Source: a virus
Direction: 5' to 3' (one strand)
IMG/VR virus record: IMGVR_UViG_3300025154_000049
Span: 1-64,000 of that record
Length of the DNA: 64,000 nucleotides
This document shows, piece after piece, positions 18,244 through 57,518 of the stretch (position 1 is the stretch's first letter; each line of letters begins with the position of its first letter). The translations under genes and the position numbers were made by a program. The notes beneath the pieces were generated by a model. That model saw nothing but the letters and a program-made list of their open reading frames with translations, was not told the origin of the DNA and did no database searches.

Positions 18244-18272
18244 TTTTAATCTCCGAATTTAGTTTTCCTAAA

Positions 18273-18282
18273 TATAATATAA
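18273..18282 (-). promoter_or_regulatory. late-type promoter element
   Basis: Exact element followed by TTTAGG, 30 bases before the DUF3293-like gene. Confidence 0.6.
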
Positions 18283-18285
18283 ATA

Positions 18286-18456
18286 TTACAACCTTGTTTT
18301 TCTAAACTCAAACTTTTTATCGTTTATTAATCCATATAATATAATAGACTCTTTATCACAATCACAAGAAGTTTCCTTACTTCCTAGTTCCAAAGTATTA
18401 GATACTAGTTTAATATTTCCACAAGAATGACATTCTAAGATAGAATAAGTATTCAT
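18286..18456 (-). CDS. small zinc-ribbon-like protein
   Basis: 56 residues from the ATG at 18456, which has a GGAG site; the longer frame overlaps the upstream gene. Cysteines CHSCG and CDCD suggest zinc binding. Role unknown. It is the second gene of a two-gene unit driven by the promoter at 18695-18723. Confidence 0.5.
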   Translation of the reverse strand: MNTYSILECHSCGNIKLVSNTLELGSKETSCDCDKESIILYGLINDKKFEFRKTRL

Positions 18457-18458
18457 GG

Positions 18459-18668
18459 TTAAACTCCTAATTCGTTCCATACTTGTAATATAGTGCCATA
18501 ACAAGAATATTCTTTTCCTATCTTATTTCCATCCTTAGTCAAATTCATCACATCTACTAAAATAGAAAAAGGTAACTGTTTTATCTGAACTTTATAAGAA
18601 AGTTGTTTTAACAATTTAACTTTATCTTTTTTATTTAAACTTATTGACCCGTCTTTCAATATTCTCAT
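18459..18668 (-). CDS. small hypothetical protein
   Basis: 69 residues, basic N-terminal half (SLNKKDKVKLLKQLSYKVQIKQLPFSILVDVMNLTKDG), no known motif. Strong AAAGGAG site and a host-type promoter directly upstream suggest early or middle expression inside the late gene block. Confidence 0.45.
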   Translation of the reverse strand: MRILKDGSISLNKKDKVKLLKQLSYKVQIKQLPFSILVDVMNLTKDGNKIGKEYSCYGTILQVWNELGV

Positions 18669-18694
18669 AGTATCTCCTTTAACAATATAATTTT

Positions 18695-18723
18695 ATAATA
18701 ACAAAAAGAAGACTATATTTCAA
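18695..18723 (-). promoter_or_regulatory. host-type promoter TTGAAA-N17-TATTAT
   Basis: Minus-strand -35 at 18718-18723 and -10 at 18695-18700 with TGT before the -10. The -35 lies in the loop of the terminator at 18706-18730, so stop and restart signals overlap. Confidence 0.55.
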
Positions 18724-18730
18724 GTCTTCT
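18706..18730 (-). terminator. terminator after zinc-ribbon gene
   Basis: AGAAGACT pairs with AGTCTTCT and is followed on the minus strand by TTTTG. Confidence 0.7.
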
Positions 18731-18762
18731 TCTATAAGTTTGTTACAATACTTATTATTGAT

Positions 18763-18972
18763 TTATTCTTCTTCCCCCCTAAACGTGGGACAAACCTCCC
18801 AAGACATATCTTCAACACCACAGGTAATTTTAGTTTTACTACAAGTTCCATTAACTTGTTTTTGAGGACAAGTTAATATAGTTCCCAAACTAAAACCGCA
18901 GGAACCACAGGTGTCCTCTTTTATATCTATCTCACCGCAACTGGGACAGAAAGCTCTCGTATCTTCTGACAT
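18763..18972 (-). CDS. small double zinc-ribbon protein
   Basis: 69 residues with four cysteine pairs or singles: FCPSCG, TCGSCG, TCPQ, TCGV/VCPT. The first two CxxC pairs form a classic zinc ribbon. Ends acidic. Followed by a terminator. Possibly binds nucleic acid or protein; function unknown. Confidence 0.55.
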   Translation of the reverse strand: MSEDTRAFCPSCGEIDIKEDTCGSCGFSLGTILTCPQKQVNGTCSKTKITCGVEDMSWEVCPTFRGEEE

Positions 18973-18998
18973 GTTATCCTCCCCTTAAACTTTATATA

Positions 18999-35112: not shown

Positions 35113-36048
35113 CTAGTATCCCTCCTGAAAGTCTTGTATAAAATCCACATTAGGTAGTTTATTGTGTTTCAATAAAATGGAATAGATAACATCATGTTTA
35201 AATTTAAATTTAGAACTGTATGTTCTTAAATTAGGTAAAAATAAATTACTTAATTCTACAAGTTCTAACACATTTAATAATTGAAGTTCTTCTTTTTCTA
35301 TGTACCTTCTTATTTTCTTACTCTGAGATTTATTTATGAGTTTATCTTTCTCGAAGGATAATAAAAGATTGATGCAGGATTCAGAATCAGTATTAATATT
35401 TTGTAAATGTTGAATAGTTTTGTCAATATTAGTTTTCTTAGTATTGTCGATTAAATCTAAAAAATATCTATTATGGTCTGTCTCTGGAAGAACTTCATTT
35501 TTTAATTTTATCTTCGTATCTGGAATCAATATTTCAGAATTTTTCTCCGAATCCACCGAACTAATTTTGTAGAAACCTACATTAACCACCATCGATTTAG
35601 AGAATAAAATAGGATAGTCAATAAAAGTTCCGAGCATATAGGTATCATTAACCACCTTATCCGCAGTCATAAAATATCTTTGATATCCCGCTTTTAAATC
35701 CTCCTCTATAAAAATCCAATCATTGCTAATAGGAACCCTATCTCCCAACTCAGTAAAATAATCAGAATCTAACAAAGTAACAAATTCCACTATATCATTT
35801 CTTTTTAAAATTATTAATTCCTTGTCTTGAGGAGTAAATAGCTGTTTCTGATTTAATAATAATTCCATCTGAGTTTCTACGGGCTGTTTTATAAAATAAT
35901 TTACAGGTATTTTTAAGGTTTTAAGAAAGGTTTCAATACCTGAATTAGACATTTTAAAAGGATAATTGTCCTCGAAAAATTTATCAATCTCCTTAACACT
36001 TAAATTATAGATTTCCCCGTTTAAGTATTTATCCCTAATTAGTTTCAT
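35113..36048 (-). CDS. DUF932-like phage protein, tentative
   Basis: 311 residues. The middle (YFTELGDRVPISNDWIFIEEDLKAGYQRYFMTADKVVNDTY...GTFIDYPILFSKSMVVNVGFYKISSV) resembles the beta-core of DUF932 proteins found on phages and plasmids. The C-terminal half is helical with charged repeats. Overlaps the Toprim gene by 14 bases. Function unknown. Confidence 0.4.
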   Translation of the reverse strand: MKLIRDKYLNGEIYNLSVKEIDKFFEDNYPFKMSNSGIETFLKTLKIPVNYFIKQPVETQMELLLNQKQLFTPQDKELIILKRNDIVEFVTLLDSDYFTELGDRVPISNDWIFIEEDLKAGYQRYFMTADKVVNDTYMLGTFIDYPILFSKSMVVNVGFYKISSVDSEKNSEILIPDTKIKLKNEVLPETDHNRYFLDLIDNTKKTNIDKTIQHLQNINTDSESCINLLLSFEKDKLINKSQSKKIRRYIEKEELQLLNVLELVELSNLFLPNLRTYSSKFKFKHDVIYSILLKHNKLPNVDFIQDFQEGY

Positions 36049-36760
36049 ATATTCCTCCTAAATCTTCTATAGCAAATTTTAGTTTATCTAAAAAAATATT
36101 TAATCCCGAAGGATTACTTAAAAACATAGCACAATCTTTATGTGCTGGAGTAACAACTTTATGCTGAACATGCCAATCTGTGGAAGTAGTTAAAATTCTA
36201 TGTATTCTATTTTCTTCTTTATTTACAGATTTCTTACCTACGTTGTCTATTTTATCTTCATCATTATCGTAACAAAATATTATCTTAGAGACAGTATTCT
36301 TAAATATTTCTAAATTGCTAATAGTTATCTCAGAGCCATTTAAAGCTAGGCAATATTTGTAATATTGTTTTAACCATATAGCATCTTTAACACCTTCACA
36401 AATTATAACAGGTTTGGTATAGTCAAAATCAGAAAAATCCTCCCACCCAAATATAGGGGGAATGTTGTTTTTATAATCAAAAATAGTTCTATACTCTTTT
36501 TTATCATAACTTCTCAAAACAAAACCTATGATTTTTTTACTGGGGGTAGCTAAAGGAATCATCCAAAAACAAGGATTTTCTTCAAAATACTTCCAAAAAC
36601 TTTTAATAGGATACTGATATTTTATAGTATCCTTAACAAAAACTAAACCCACAGGTAATCCCTTCTTCAATTGAAAACATGTATAGTTTTCATTAGTTTC
36701 TGGAACTAACCCACACACAGGTATAGAATGTTTATAAAGTTTTATAAAATCCTCTAACAA
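36035..36760 (-). CDS. Toprim-domain primase-like protein
   Basis: About 241 residues; start taken as TTG at 36760 because GAGGA lies 6 bases upstream, and the TTG at 36766 would be too close. Residues 130-190 form a Toprim core: VIICEGVKDAIWLKQ (catalytic Glu) and IIFCYDNDEDKIDNVGK (DxD). Upstream it has the FVLRSYDKKEYRTIF pattern of DnaG/T7-like primases, but no clear N-terminal zinc finger or helicase domain. Single-gene primase-like or regulatory protein. Confidence 0.6.
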   Translation of the reverse strand: MLEDFIKLYKHSIPVCGLVPETNENYTCFQLKKGLPVGLVFVKDTIKYQYPIKSFWKYFEENPCFWMIPLATPSKKIIGFVLRSYDKKEYRTIFDYKNNIPPIFGWEDFSDFDYTKPVIICEGVKDAIWLKQYYKYCLALNGSEITISNLEIFKNTVSKIIFCYDNDEDKIDNVGKKSVNKEENRIHRILTTSTDWHVQHKVVTPAHKDCAMFLSNPSGLNIFLDKLKFAIEDLGGIYETN

Positions 36761-36790
36761 ACCCAATCCTCAATATTCACCCATAACAAC

Positions 36791-36819
36791 ATTATAACAT
36801 AACACAAAGGATATGTCAA
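36791..36819 (-). promoter_or_regulatory. host-type promoter TTGACA-N17-TATAAT
   Basis: Consensus match: -35 at 36814-36819 and -10 at 36791-36796, TGT before the -10. Drives the Toprim-DUF932-sigma-terminase direction. Confidence 0.8.
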
Positions 36820-36926
36820 TACCGTTACAAGATTAAATTTTAATTAAAATGAGGCAAGTATTACAAAACGCTAAGATGACAGAGTGTGGTCAATGAGCAA
36901 AAGTAATTTAGCCTAAAGTCAGTGAT

Positions 36927-36988
36927 GACAAGATACAATTACTACTATGTAAGTTTGTATAGTTTCATTTCTTGTTATTAAGATTAAT
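36927..36988. repeat. 62-bp direct repeat, copy 1
   Basis: Identical over all 62 bases to 37345-37406. Each copy can fold into a hairpin: inner stem ACTATGTAA/TTTGTATAGT (with G-U pairs) and outer ACAAGA/TCTTGT. Confidence 0.9.
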
Positions 36989-37167
36989 GATAGTAGTTTT
37001 CCATATACAATCCAAGCTTACTCTTCTTAACAGGTATTAATAACCTATTCTCCTCAAAGAGAGATAACTGTGAACGTGCTTTTTAACCTATTATTATAAC
37101 AGGTTAGGGCTTTAAAAGAACAACTGTATGGGAAACTTCTGTAACTATTTAAGTGAGATTGCTTTTT

Positions 37168-37297
37168 TTATCAGCGTTTCACCCAGTACATTCATCTCTA
37201 CGAGATGGTTTAACAATTTACTTACAGGGAGATTTCGTTGTTGCATACAGAAGAGTATTAACCATTTCTTCAGCATTTTACCCATCTGATAACATTT
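37168..37297 (-). ncRNA. putative structured RNA downstream of a strong promoter
   Basis: On the minus strand a closing helix TTATCAG/CTGATAA (37286-37292 with 37168-37174) encloses a second helix ATGGTT-AA/TTA-AACCAT and a hairpin CATCTC-TAC-GAGATG (37193-37207). A promoter-like element lies just before it. No known RNA family was recognised. Confidence 0.4.
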
Positions 37298-37322
37298 TAG
37301 CATATTATAACAATTATGTCAA
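37294..37322 (-). promoter_or_regulatory. host-type promoter inside non-coding region
   Basis: TTGACA at 37317-37322, then TAAAAT at 37294-37299 after 17 bases. A TGTTATAAT extended -10 at 37304-37309 is an alternative; its start site would include the whole structured segment. Confidence 0.65.
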
Positions 37323-37344
37323 GATTTTAATTCCTTCAGTTTCC

Positions 37345-37406
37345 GACAAGATACAATTACTACTATGTAAGTTTGTATAGTTTCATTTCTTGTTATTAAG
37401 ATTAAT
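37345..37406. repeat. 62-bp direct repeat, copy 2
   Basis: Second copy, 418 bases from the first, lying just upstream of a minus-strand promoter. Confidence 0.9.
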
Positions 37407-37446
37407 TCTCTAAAGAGAAAAGAAATATAAATATATTTATATAATA

Positions 37447-37851
37447 TTAAACTCTATAATAAGGAGTTTTATAAACTCCCATATCTCCAAATAAGTCTAA
37501 CTTATAATTTCTTTTATCTGCTATTCTTTTTTTAAAATTATTACTAATATTTAACTCTGCTAATTCATTGAAAAGATTCTGAATAAATTCAGAATTAAAT
37601 AGGTTATGTAATCTATCTGTTTTCTTAAGATTGTTAAAACTAACTATTAAGCATATAGAATTACCGTCTCTATGATAATCAAATTTTGCTTTATACAACT
37701 TTCCTAAAGCTTCCTCTTTTTTATACCTGTCTAAAATTTTCATGACATCGTAGATATCTGATTTAATTATTTCCTCTTCTTCGTCATGAAGAACATCTTC
37801 TTTTTCTAAATCTAACTTATCCATTATCTGTTTTATAAAATCTAAAGACAT
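37447..37851 (-). CDS. hypothetical late protein
   Basis: 134 residues: an acidic N-terminal helix (MDKLDLEKEDVLHDEEEEI) and a C-terminal mixed domain (FDYHRDGNSICLIVSFNNLKKTDRLHNLF). No motif recognised. A terminator-promoter pair precedes it, so it is late expressed and possibly a virion component. Confidence 0.4.
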   Translation of the reverse strand: MSLDFIKQIMDKLDLEKEDVLHDEEEEIIKSDIYDVMKILDRYKKEEALGKLYKAKFDYHRDGNSICLIVSFNNLKKTDRLHNLFNSEFIQNLFNELAELNISNNFKKRIADKRNYKLDLFGDMGVYKTPYYRV

Positions 37852-53049: not shown

Positions 53050-55290
53050 TTAAAAATATGATATTTCCGCTATCTTGGTTGAAGTTACTGGTAATGTTAT
53101 TTGGGTATTAAACTTTTCAGTTGTGCTGAGAAAGCTACCGTTAAAACCGCCAAAAGATAATCCTCCATTTTGTGAACCCGAAGAAGCTAAATCTCCCCTA
53201 GCAGTATTTAAATTACCTGTGTTAGTCCAAGTAGCTCCGTTAAACTTTTCAGTACTTACTATATAGGTAGGCACACTACCTCCAAAAACCAAAGCTGAGT
53301 TTTGAGTCCCACAAGCACTAGGAGCATTTCTTCCTACGTTTAGACCGCTGGTATTAGACCAAGTAGCTCCGTTAAACTTTTCAGTAGTAGGTTGGTAAGA
53401 ATACCCTCCAGTATTACCTCCAGTACTTAACCCAGAGTTCTGAGTTCCGCATCCAGTTAGATAATATCTACCCGTATTTAAATTACCTGTGTTAGTCCAA
53501 ACAGAGCCATTAAACTTCTCAGTCTTATCATAAGGAGATACTATACCCCCAAAACTCAACCCTGCATTCTGAGTTCCACAACCCGCTAGATTATAATTAG
53601 CAGTATTTAAGTTTCCAGTACCCGTCCAAGTAGAACCATTAAACTTTTCAGACACTGAGGAAAGAGTGCTACCGTCAGGAGTACCCCCAGAAGCCAATCC
53701 GCCATTTTGTGTTCCACACCCAGCCAATTTGTGTCTAGGAGTATTTAAAGAGCCTGTATTACTCCAAGAAGAGCCATTAAACTTTTCAGCTATTGCAATA
53801 TTAGAAGCTCCGCTATACCCCCCAAAAATTAATCCAGAGTTCTCAAACCCTGCCCCTGCTGGGAATCTTCTTCCGTATGTTAAGTTCCCACTAGAAGTCC
53901 ACACACCACCTATTACATCATCTAAGAAGCCCAGTGTTGCTAGGTCATTCTGTTCTTCTTCTGTTAATCCATTAGATGAAGGTCTTACTTCTACTGATAG
54001 ATAACAAGGAGCCGTTATTTTTATATTTTTAGCATTAAAAGAAGTTATCTCTTTAAAATCAGTATCATTTTTTAAATTTATATATTGAGAGAACAAAGGT
54101 TCCCCTATAAATTTCTCTGTTATGGCAGAAACAGAACCTACTGTTCCTCCAAAGCTCAATCCAGAATTCTGAGTTCCACAAGCCCCTAAAGAATTTCTAG
54201 CAGTATTTAAATTACTAGATAAAATCCAAGTAGCACCATTAAACTTTTCTGTTATATCTAAATAGGCAGTAGTTCCAGCACCTCCAAAGCTCAATCCAGA
54301 ATTCTGAGTTCCACTTCCTCCTAGGGTAGTTCTGGCGGTATTTAAGTTACCAGAAGCAGTCCAAACAGAGCCATTAAACTTTTCAGTAGTGTTAGAAGCC
54401 ACAGAGCCATCAATACTCCCCCCAAAACTTAATCCCGAATTTTGGGTTCCGATTCCTTTAGAATAGCTTTTATTATTGATTAGGGAACCAGTAGTAGCCC
54501 AAGTAGAACCATTAAATTTCTCTGCTGTATTGACGGGAGTGTTTACACCTACTGTTCCTCCGATGCTTAATCCAGAGTTCTGAGTTCCACATCCTGCTAT
54601 ACGAGCCCTAGCGGTAACTAAATTACCAGTGTTAGACCAAGTAGAACCGTCAAACTTCTCCGTTTTGTTTAAAGGGGTTCCAGCAACCACTAATCCACCA
54701 AAACTTAATCCACTGTTTTGAGTTCCACAACCTGCTAAACTTTGTCTAGCAGTAACTAAATTACCAGTAGCTGTCCAAATAGAGCCATTGAATTTTTCTG
54801 TTACGGCTGATGCTGTTCCAGTATTACCTCCGAAACTTAATCCACTGTTTTGAGTTCCACAACCAGAAAGGGCTACTCTGGCAGTATTTAAGTTACCAGA
54901 AGCAGTCCATATATTTTTTACAAAACTACTTATCAAATTAGTCATGTTAAAATATTTATCTCCAGTAGAAGAGATATAGAATTCTTTATACATATCATCC
55001 ATACTTAATATGGTGGCACTTCCACCGCCAGAACCTCCCCCAGTACCAGTTATTTCTAACCATCCAGTATTTCCAGAGCTAGTACTCTTTCTGTATAATT
55101 TTCCTGTTCCAGAAGTATTAATATCTTGATATAGTACACCGATAGTAGAAGCAACAACTCCTTCGGGAGAACCGCTTCCTTGTATAACTACAGCGTTATA
55201 AGCATTATAAATAATATTAAAATTAGCATTGACTTCAGGAGCTACCGCTAATGTCCCAGATGTAAATGTATAAGGTTTATTAATTGTCAT
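53050..55290 (-). CDS. propeller-type tail fibre protein 1
   Basis: 746 residues. An N-terminal 110 residues (YTFTSGTLAVAPEVNANFNIIYNAYNAV..., TGKLYRKST) probably attach to the virion. Then come six kelch-like repeats of the form W-T-x-TGNLNTAR...GCGTQNSGLSFGG...TEKFNG, a linker (about 400-450, LTEEEQNDLATLGFLDDVIGG) and six more, that is, two six-blade propellers. Such propellers often bind carbohydrates. Shares linker DNA with the next gene; a likely receptor-binding pair. Confidence 0.75.
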   Translation of the reverse strand: MTINKPYTFTSGTLAVAPEVNANFNIIYNAYNAVVIQGSGSPEGVVASTIGVLYQDINTSGTGKLYRKSTSSGNTGWLEITGTGGGSGGGSATILSMDDMYKEFYISSTGDKYFNMTNLISSFVKNIWTASGNLNTARVALSGCGTQNSGLSFGGNTGTASAVTEKFNGSIWTATGNLVTARQSLAGCGTQNSGLSFGGLVVAGTPLNKTEKFDGSTWSNTGNLVTARARIAGCGTQNSGLSIGGTVGVNTPVNTAEKFNGSTWATTGSLINNKSYSKGIGTQNSGLSFGGSIDGSVASNTTEKFNGSVWTASGNLNTARTTLGGSGTQNSGLSFGGAGTTAYLDITEKFNGATWILSSNLNTARNSLGACGTQNSGLSFGGTVGSVSAITEKFIGEPLFSQYINLKNDTDFKEITSFNAKNIKITAPCYLSVEVRPSSNGLTEEEQNDLATLGFLDDVIGGVWTSSGNLTYGRRFPAGAGFENSGLIFGGYSGASNIAIAEKFNGSSWSNTGSLNTPRHKLAGCGTQNGGLASGGTPDGSTLSSVSEKFNGSTWTGTGNLNTANYNLAGCGTQNAGLSFGGIVSPYDKTEKFNGSVWTNTGNLNTGRYYLTGCGTQNSGLSTGGNTGGYSYQPTTEKFNGATWSNTSGLNVGRNAPSACGTQNSALVFGGSVPTYIVSTEKFNGATWTNTGNLNTARGDLASSGSQNGGLSFGGFNGSFLSTTEKFNTQITLPVTSTKIAEISYF
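53880..53996. repeat. 117-bp repeat shared by both fibre genes, copy 1
   Basis: Identical to 56117-56233 over 117 bases, inside otherwise diverged paralogues; encodes the linker between the two propellers. Confidence 0.9.
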
Positions 55291-55307
55291 AATATATTAT
55301 TCCCTTA

Positions 55308-57518
55308 TTATCCGTAAATAATTTCAAAACTTTTTTGCCCGACAGTAGGAAGAGAAATTTGTGTATTAAACTTTTCAGTAATAGCTAATTTGCTACCATT
55401 GGAGCCTCCGAAACTTAATCCACTGTTTTGAGTTCCAGCACCAGCTAAATCAACTCTACCAGTATTTAGGTTAGACGTGTAACTCCAGATAATTCCATTA
55501 TATTTCTCACTAATGATACTGTTAAGTTCTCCTCCGAAGCTTAATCCAGAGTTTTGAGTTCCCGCACCACTAGCATACGCTCTACCAGTATTTAGGCTAG
55601 ACGTATAACTCCAGATAATTCCATTATATTTCTCACTGGTACTAAGGCTACTCTGTCCTCCAGCAGTTAGAGCATTGTTAGAATTTCCAAATCCGATTAT
55701 ATATGCTCTAGCAGTACTCAGATTGCCCCCATAACTCCATGAAGTACCGTTATACTTTTCTGTAGTATTTAAGGTTCCCGTACCTAAACCCCCAAAACAT
55801 AAACTAGCTGTTTGTGTTCCGCATCCCCCTCCGTAACCTCTAGCAGTGCCTAAGTTTCCCCCAGAACTCCATGAAGTTCCGTCGTATTCTTCTGTTAGGG
55901 ATAGATATGATGTATTATATCCTCCAAAGTTTAACCCAGAGTTTAGTATCCCACATCCTAATGATATGTTCTTTACTACACTTGTGTTACCCCCAGAACT
56001 CCAAGAGGAGCCATTGAATTCCTCTGTTATATTCGTTCTACCGATAGAATCTATACCCGCCACCGAAACCGCTGAATTTTGAAATCCAAAACCAGCTAAT
56101 TGTTGCCTAGCAGTATTTAAGTTCCCACTAGAAGTCCACACACCACCTATTACATCATCTAAGAAGCCCAGTGTTGCTAGGTCATTCTGTTCTTCTTCTG
56201 TTAATCCATTAGATGAAGGTCTTACTTCTACTGCTAAATAACAAGGAGTATTAAATATAAACGATTTTGATTCTTTAAATTGGTCTTCTACTACTTTTGT
56301 GTCATTCTTTAAATTTACATATATATTTAATAGAGGTTCCCCAACAAATTTCTCTGTTATGGCGGAAGAGGCACTAATATAACCTCCAAAAGACAGTCCA
56401 CTATTTTGAGTGCCACACCCAGATAAATAATTTCTAGCAGTGTTCAAAGAACCAGTAGTAGCCCAAACAGAACCATTAAATTTCTCTGCAACGGCAGAAT
56501 TAGAACCCGTATTTCCTCCGAAGGATAAACCTGAACTAGAAGTACCTCCCCCCTTTAAACCGTGTCTAGCTGTATTCAAAGAACCAGTAGTAACCCAAAC
56601 AGAGCCATTAAATTTCTCGGTAACAGCAGAAACAGAACCTGTGTTACCTCCAAAAGATAAACCACTATTCTGAGTTCCGCATCCAGATAGAATATACCTA
56701 GAAGTATTTAAGTTTCCAGAAGTAGCCCAAGTAGAACCGTTGAATTTTTCTGTTACTACTATGGTAGTTGATGTGAACCCTCCAGCACATACACCAGAAT
56801 TTTGGGTTCCAAAATCTGCAAATGCCCTCTTGGCAGTATTTAGTGAACCTGTAGCAGTCCAAGTAGCCCCATTAAACTTTTCAGTAACGGCAGAGTTTAC
56901 TGTAGTAAACCCCCCAAAACTCAAACCAGAGTTCTGAGTTCCACATCCCCCTATTACAAATCTAGCAGTATTTAATGAACCTGTAGCAGTCCAAGTAGCT
57001 CCATTAAACTTTTCAGTAGTTCCAGAGGGATTAGTTCCATCGGTACTTCCCCCAAAAGATAATCCAGAATTTTGAGTTCCACATCCACCCAACTGTAGTC
57101 TAGCTGTATTTAAGTTTCCAGAGGCAGACCAAACATTTTTTACTAAGTTAGTTCCTATAAAATTAGATACATTGAATATTTTATTTCCAGTAGTAGATAT
57201 ATAAAATTCTTCGTACATATCATTACCGTCAAGAATAGTTGCTGAGAATCCTCCGCCTCCTCCAGAGCCAGAGTCTATAACAGTCTGCCATCCAGTATTT
57301 CCAGAGCCAGATATTTTCACGTATACTAAACCTGTTCCACCTGCATTCTGGTCTTCATATAAAGTACCTATGTTAGCAGTAACAACTCCTTCAGGAGAAC
57401 CACTTCCATATAATACGATAGAATTAAATGCTGAGTATATAGTATCAAAGTTTGAATTAGCTTGTGCTGATTGAGCTAATGTGTTACTCGTAAAGTTATA
57501 AGGTTTATTTACTGTCAT
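55308..57518 (-). CDS. propeller-type tail fibre protein 2
   Basis: 736 residues, paralogue of the preceding gene with the same layout: an N-terminal domain with GTGLVYVKI, six kelch-like repeats, the same linker, then six repeats that diverge more (NSALTAGG, SIISEKYNG). It has a late-type element 51 bases upstream and an 18-base gap to the other fibre. Different repeat faces suggest different receptors. Confidence 0.75.
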   Translation of the reverse strand: MTVNKPYNFTSNTLAQSAQANSNFDTIYSAFNSIVLYGSGSPEGVVTANIGTLYEDQNAGGTGLVYVKISGSGNTGWQTVIDSGSGGGGGFSATILDGNDMYEEFYISTTGNKIFNVSNFIGTNLVKNVWSASGNLNTARLQLGGCGTQNSGLSFGGSTDGTNPSGTTEKFNGATWTATGSLNTARFVIGGCGTQNSGLSFGGFTTVNSAVTEKFNGATWTATGSLNTAKRAFADFGTQNSGVCAGGFTSTTIVVTEKFNGSTWATSGNLNTSRYILSGCGTQNSGLSFGGNTGSVSAVTEKFNGSVWVTTGSLNTARHGLKGGGTSSSGLSFGGNTGSNSAVAEKFNGSVWATTGSLNTARNYLSGCGTQNSGLSFGGYISASSAITEKFVGEPLLNIYVNLKNDTKVVEDQFKESKSFIFNTPCYLAVEVRPSSNGLTEEEQNDLATLGFLDDVIGGVWTSSGNLNTARQQLAGFGFQNSAVSVAGIDSIGRTNITEEFNGSSWSSGGNTSVVKNISLGCGILNSGLNFGGYNTSYLSLTEEYDGTSWSSGGNLGTARGYGGGCGTQTASLCFGGLGTGTLNTTEKYNGTSWSYGGNLSTARAYIIGFGNSNNALTAGGQSSLSTSEKYNGIIWSYTSSLNTGRAYASGAGTQNSGLSFGGELNSIISEKYNGIIWSYTSNLNTGRVDLAGAGTQNSGLSFGGSNGSKLAITEKFNTQISLPTVGQKSFEIIYG
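56117..56233. repeat. 117-bp repeat shared by both fibre genes, copy 2
   Basis: Second copy, in fibre protein 2. Identity beyond what neighbouring sequence shows suggests gene conversion or recombination at the linker. Confidence 0.9.

Follow-up and report, generated by a model that had tools for sequence, protein, structure and literature searches.

To our knowledge, there is no consensus on what ROOL, GOLLD, the ICP1 RNA and other large phage RNAs do. A homo-oligomeric RNA nanocage is a characteristic of both ROOL and GOLLD. ROOL is usually, but not always, found beside phage tRNA genes, and many GOLLD RNAs exceed 800 nt and are located near tRNAs, the RNA presented here being ~450 nt long. 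ROOL is a large structured phage RNA harboring an AU-rich linker without conserved sequence (nt 414-464), and in both ROOL and GOLLD a disordered linker of ~40-50 nt with no conserved sequence can be found between ordered parts (PMC12286853). In the virulent phage ICP1, the ncRNA located in the ORF-less space between gp139 and gp140 is the most abundant transcript of the phage (PMC7567579). Finally, extrachromosomal mycobacteriophage prophages exhibit RNA-based origins with an ncRNA region needed for replication (PMC7157519).

The locus considered here belongs to a large, distant T4-like phage of metagenomic origin. The window, i.e., the whole stretch of 64,000 nucleotides that was analyzed, corresponds to the first 64 kb of a source record of 158,517 bp. 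This phage encodes a Gp23 major capsid protein matching phrog_138, whose relatives in named phages reach at most ~37% identity. The gap of 680 bp (36767-37446) reported in the initial annotation separates a 134-aa gene from a primase-like gene; described in that annotation as the only long gene-free stretch, it is indeed the longest clear one in the window, although a stretch of 755 bp (18244-18998) also appears at an 80-aa ORF threshold. All elements are on the minus strand: the 134-aa gene comes first, then repeat A and promoter P1, followed by the predicted structured RNA with repeat B inside it, and finally promoter P2 and the primase (Toprim) gene (Table 1). The protein encoded by the 134-aa gene has no Pfam/PHROG match, and alignment with the distant relative L014 makes a TTG near 36760 the more likely start of the primase gene.

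Table 1. Coordinates of the features described in the text (window positions unless a contig or the record is named).
Feature	Position	Strand	Details
Upstream 134-aa gene	37447..37851	-	conserved, 43% in L014
TATAAATA, T4-type late-promoter-like motif	37434..37441	-	in the window clade, ~28 bp before repeat A; candidate from sequence
Repeat copy A, DNA copy upstream of P1	37345..37406	-	62/62 identical to B
P1, extended -10 sigma70 type, proposed RNA promoter	37294..37322	-	TTGACA-17-TAAAAT + TG, 11/12
Predicted structured RNA, ~450 nt	36836..37288	-	5' end from P1; 3' end estimated, last conserved helix
RNA 5' domain, ~300 nt	36989..37288	-	central sub-domain 37116-37246; alifold z -4.4 and -3.6 vs column shuffles
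Repeat copy B, AU-rich segment in RNA between 5' and 3' domains	36927..36988	-	
RNA 3' domain, ~90 nt	36840..36926	-	alifold z -3.85
P2, extended -10 sigma70 type	36791..36819	-	TTGACA-17-TATAAT + TG, 12/12
DnaG-type primase/Toprim gene, downstream	36035..36766	-	
Permuted tmRNA	L026:851-1175 (record ~124.85-125.18 kb); L107:11204-11527 in relative G002		
Intein-like insertions	L014:7992-11972; L010 between 6971 and 8001		L014 apparently with two, L010 with a single insert (residue 96)

Both promoters announced by the initial annotation, one between the repeats and the other at the far end of the gap, are present on the minus strand, the former being near consensus and the latter matching it at every position. 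With a strict pattern (TTGACA-16/18-TAWAMT), 17 matches are found in the record vs 0 for the reversed pattern used as a control, which indicates that such promoter sites are real features of this phage. P1 and P2 are both kept in the close relatives L004 and L005, and a counterpart of P1 exists in L014, placing a promoter at the same position in four genomes.

Regarding the transcript expected from P1, the locus very probably carries a structured RNA, as predicted from sequence comparison. L004 and L005 can be aligned with the window across the entire gap, the layout being kept, and the fold was evaluated on these three sequences only. Their RNA alignment is better than column shuffles (z -4.46, 0/200 as good), and the 5' domain, the central domain, the P5-P7 part and the 3' domain each stand out from such shuffles. 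By strand, the fold z is -4.8 in sense and -2.6 in antisense, with -2.3 and -2.2 for primase coding controls, the column-shuffle baseline being biased in that coding sequence itself scores around -2.3. Six compensatory pairs are observed vs a mean of 1.4 in column shuffles, mostly in one hairpin, and they may represent few events; one hairpin displays four both-side changes with 100% of cells paired. Taken as a single sequence, the window RNA has an ordinary folding energy (z -0.94). A coding function was rejected, the 52-aa frame found in the RNA being broken by 1-2-nt indels in the relatives.

The initial annotation had proposed, as one possibility, an ornate phage RNA similar in size to GOLLD and ROOL, to be checked by covariance across relatives and to be abandoned if conservation were lacking. 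The L004/L005 alignment provides such conservation, with a conserved fold and compensatory changes, and as a kind the proposal is supported: a conserved promoter, a sense-strand fold, compensatory changes and the lack of a kept frame, in three sequences only, agree with a large structured phage ncRNA. Gathering and permissive Rfam scans of the window and of L014 return only chance matches, in line with the earlier statement that no known family could be matched, and the RNA is thus not a recognizable ROOL or GOLLD. The ROOL covariance model (RF03087), which detects true ROOLs, gives no match above its gathering score in the window or L014. With the GOLLD model (RF02032), no match is found in the window, in L014 or in whole records, the whole-record control genomes also being empty.

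In its architecture, the RNA resembles both families, since repeat B is reminiscent of the variable AU-rich linker between the ordered parts of ROOL, and in GOLLD a variable linker likewise lies between distinct 5' and 3' domains (PMC12286853). It differs from ROOL by its length (~450 nt vs 574 positions in the ROOL model) and by not being beside tRNAs, none being found in the window and the phage tRNA cluster starting near 123.8 kb of the record. Furthermore, in none of three ROOL loci (pMP118, a Bacilli chromosome and Aerococcus phage AVP) is the linker repeated in the DNA upstream of the RNA. With the ICP1 ncRNA, the locus shares a near-consensus extended -10 promoter and a second promoter after the RNA, but the ICP1 ncRNA is ~800 nt long, has a terminator-like hairpin and harbors no direct repeat > 11 nt; a search with the window-RNA model does not find it. 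The window RNA can thus be considered as of the same broad kind without being a member, and with an added feature, namely the paired repeat.

Some additional observations were made on these comparison loci. Aerococcus phage vB_AviM_AVP has a strong unannotated ROOL RNA (L175:2783-3361, 254.7 bits) and several unannotated tRNAs, and the motif GCTACC occurs several times in the ICP1 ncRNA (L130:5000-6200, gp139-gp140). The window phage and its relative G002 both encode a tmRNA of the circularly permuted type (RF04321; tag GNNTVSLDFGRKMALVA; score of 93.8 bits in the record of the window) beside a cluster of tRNAs.

The two repeats are, as first described, perfect 62-bp direct repeats (62/62 identical, chance expectation ~2e-28). 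Exactly two copies exist in the whole 158.5-kb record, degenerate copies elsewhere do not rise above shuffled controls, and the pair is the sole fully non-coding near direct repeat of at least 40 bp in the record. An assembly artefact was rejected, the repeats being found in the separate assemblies L004, L005, L013 and L014. The repeats are AT-rich (17-23% GC), repeat B having 23% GC vs 33-34% in the two RNA domains that flank it, and repeat A precedes P1 by 22 bp. When the window is compared with L004, 2/120 repeat sites are changed vs 72/556 elsewhere (p = 7e-5), and the single repeat change is present in A and B alike. The hairpins attributed to the repeats by the initial annotation were not borne out: in the window sequence they fold no better than chance (z of -0.76 on one strand and -0.93 on the other), and hairpin formation was rejected as their function. 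A P4-like antisense pairing was also rejected, the region having no inverted repeat copy.

Perfect direct repeats bounding a 418-bp segment could also mark the ends of a mobile or recombining cassette, generated by target duplication or site-specific recombination. Such a cassette is highly improbable: the position is the same in all relatives of both clades, neither empty nor multiplied copies are seen, the RNA runs beyond repeat B, and the record encodes no reverse transcriptase. A retron or diversity-generating retroelement was rejected, no RVT_1 being present in the 158.5-kb record.

The distant relatives L014/L013 share the gene order of the window phage, with neighboring and head proteins 42-74% identical. 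The syntenic gap of L014 harbors its own perfect 63-bp direct repeat, with copies before and after the P1-like promoter, which is the longest near direct repeat of its record but differs in sequence from the 62-bp pair without significant similarity; in both the window and L014 records, the A/B-type pair is the standout short-range non-coding repeat. Local alignment of the window and L014 repeats reveals no homology, whereas global alignment gives p = 0.03, which makes a very old common descent possible. Since the L014 RNA is not recognized by the window-RNA model, the case for homology between the two RNAs is based on their position and layout. In L014, a 119-aa open frame with no window counterpart spans the RNA and its repeat B, only two near-identical sequences being available for comparison. 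Layout and A/B identity are thus kept while the sequence is not, and it seems that the identity between A and B itself matters.

Identical copies around a promoter, changing together and diverging between clades as operators would, could also be explained if A and B, on either side of P1, were DNA operators recognized by a phage regulator that acts by two-site repression or looping, with a specificity that diverged between lineages and an incidental RNA. This is unlikely considering that no strong internal dyads are found, that the whole 60 bp is conserved and not short half-sites, and that the A-B spacings in the window and its relatives (418, 419, 421, 559, and 565 bp) ignore helical phase. 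Repeat B is also within the folded RNA, between two conserved domains, and the genomes contain no further copies.

Beyond these relatives, no equivalent paired non-coding repeat around a promoter was found near the capsid genes of four distant phages of the Gp23 type (Rhizobium TM21B, E. coli IME392, Vibrio 1.031.O and Acinetobacter Ab1), or in the viral contigs G005, G010, G014, G018 and G019. A search of 1.3 Mb with the window-RNA model gives matches only in the window and in the record of L004; a weak match in G005 was discarded as antisense to a coding gene, probably nrdG-like. In G005, the primase gene is kept and the RNA is absent upstream. In the record of the related contig G019, a 1.9-kb non-coding region with many direct repeats (75424-77284, L087) lies a few kb from a primase-like gene and is a possible origin.

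In both clades, the DnaG-type primase gene comes directly after the RNA locus, ~160 bp downstream of repeat B. The RNA could therefore be mainly a cis-acting long 5' leader of the primase operon and not a free RNA, P2 giving a leaderless transcript in the window clade. In agreement with a leader, no intrinsic terminator is found to close the RNA in any of the window, L004 and L014, although the same rule yields ~27 terminator-like sites elsewhere in the window, and P2 was not found in L014. Nevertheless, in the window clade P2 lies immediately behind the RNA, so that transcription could do without the leader there, and repeat A is left unexplained; a leader as the main function is rather doubtful.

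The neighboring primase gene, the AT-rich repeats and P1 would also suit a transcription-primed replication origin, the other possibility named in the initial annotation, where the P1 RNA, via B, would form an R-loop at the AT-rich repeat A or in cis and prime synthesis. RNA-dependent origins are known in mycobacteriophage prophages (PMC7157519) and the putative origin of phage K is marked by two direct repeats (PMC9241854). Those of mycobacteriophages differ in serving prophage maintenance in temperate phages and in being beside parABS, with no such repeat pair mentioned in the passages describing them (PMC7157519). At the present locus, no initiator iterons are seen and GC skew shows no inflection, being monotonic in G000, G001 and G002, which is a weak test as genes are mostly co-directional. 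Such an origin is considered quite unlikely.

The explanation tentatively preferred is that of a structured ncRNA of ~450 nt, from an undescribed family, transcribed early from P1 ahead of the primase operon, or less probably serving as a long leader of that operon, with A and B being a shared recognition or pairing unit by which it acts on its own locus. The host-type promoter P1 would give an early transcript in which B, together with A in the DNA, would constitute one recognition unit, the identity of the two copies being functional. Either the same phage factor would bind both A and B, or the pairing would be direct, B being complementary to the template strand at A. By acting back on its own locus, the RNA might control early expression of the primase operon or the initiation of replication at this site. 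The match between A and B, the early type of P1 and the position of the primase gene immediately after the locus, seen in both clades, are suggestive of a function in early control or in starting replication, and it is possible, with some reservation, that such a mechanism operates via A and B as one recognition unit. A more specific and improbable version is that a guide-like RNA segment of 60-63 nt must match the DNA site before its own promoter, where an R-loop would start replication or switch the operon, conversion or selection maintaining the identity of the copies even as their sequence is entirely replaced from one lineage to another.

With regards to large phage RNAs, the locus would provide an RNA with a built-in clue, as its AU-rich segment is linked with a DNA site at the locus encoding it, and this in two lineages too diverged for RNA alignment. 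The A/B pair would be a direct handle on the function of such an RNA, and identical segments, one upstream of a promoter and one inside the RNA, represent a signature for finding more of them.

A few further features of the record and its relatives can be mentioned. Near-identical terminator-like hairpins (AAGAAGACTATATTTCAAGTCTTCT) occur at record positions 18698, 136983 and 137199. Long arrays of coding repeats, each of ~132 bp, are present at 53109-57019 of the window and at 67828-68700 of the record; they resemble a receptor-binding or tail repeat protein, and some of the repeats are identical over ~30 bp at a distance of 11-14 kb. In relatives, the gene for the large terminase subunit contains in-frame insertions that resemble inteins (Table 1), whereas that of the window phage has none.
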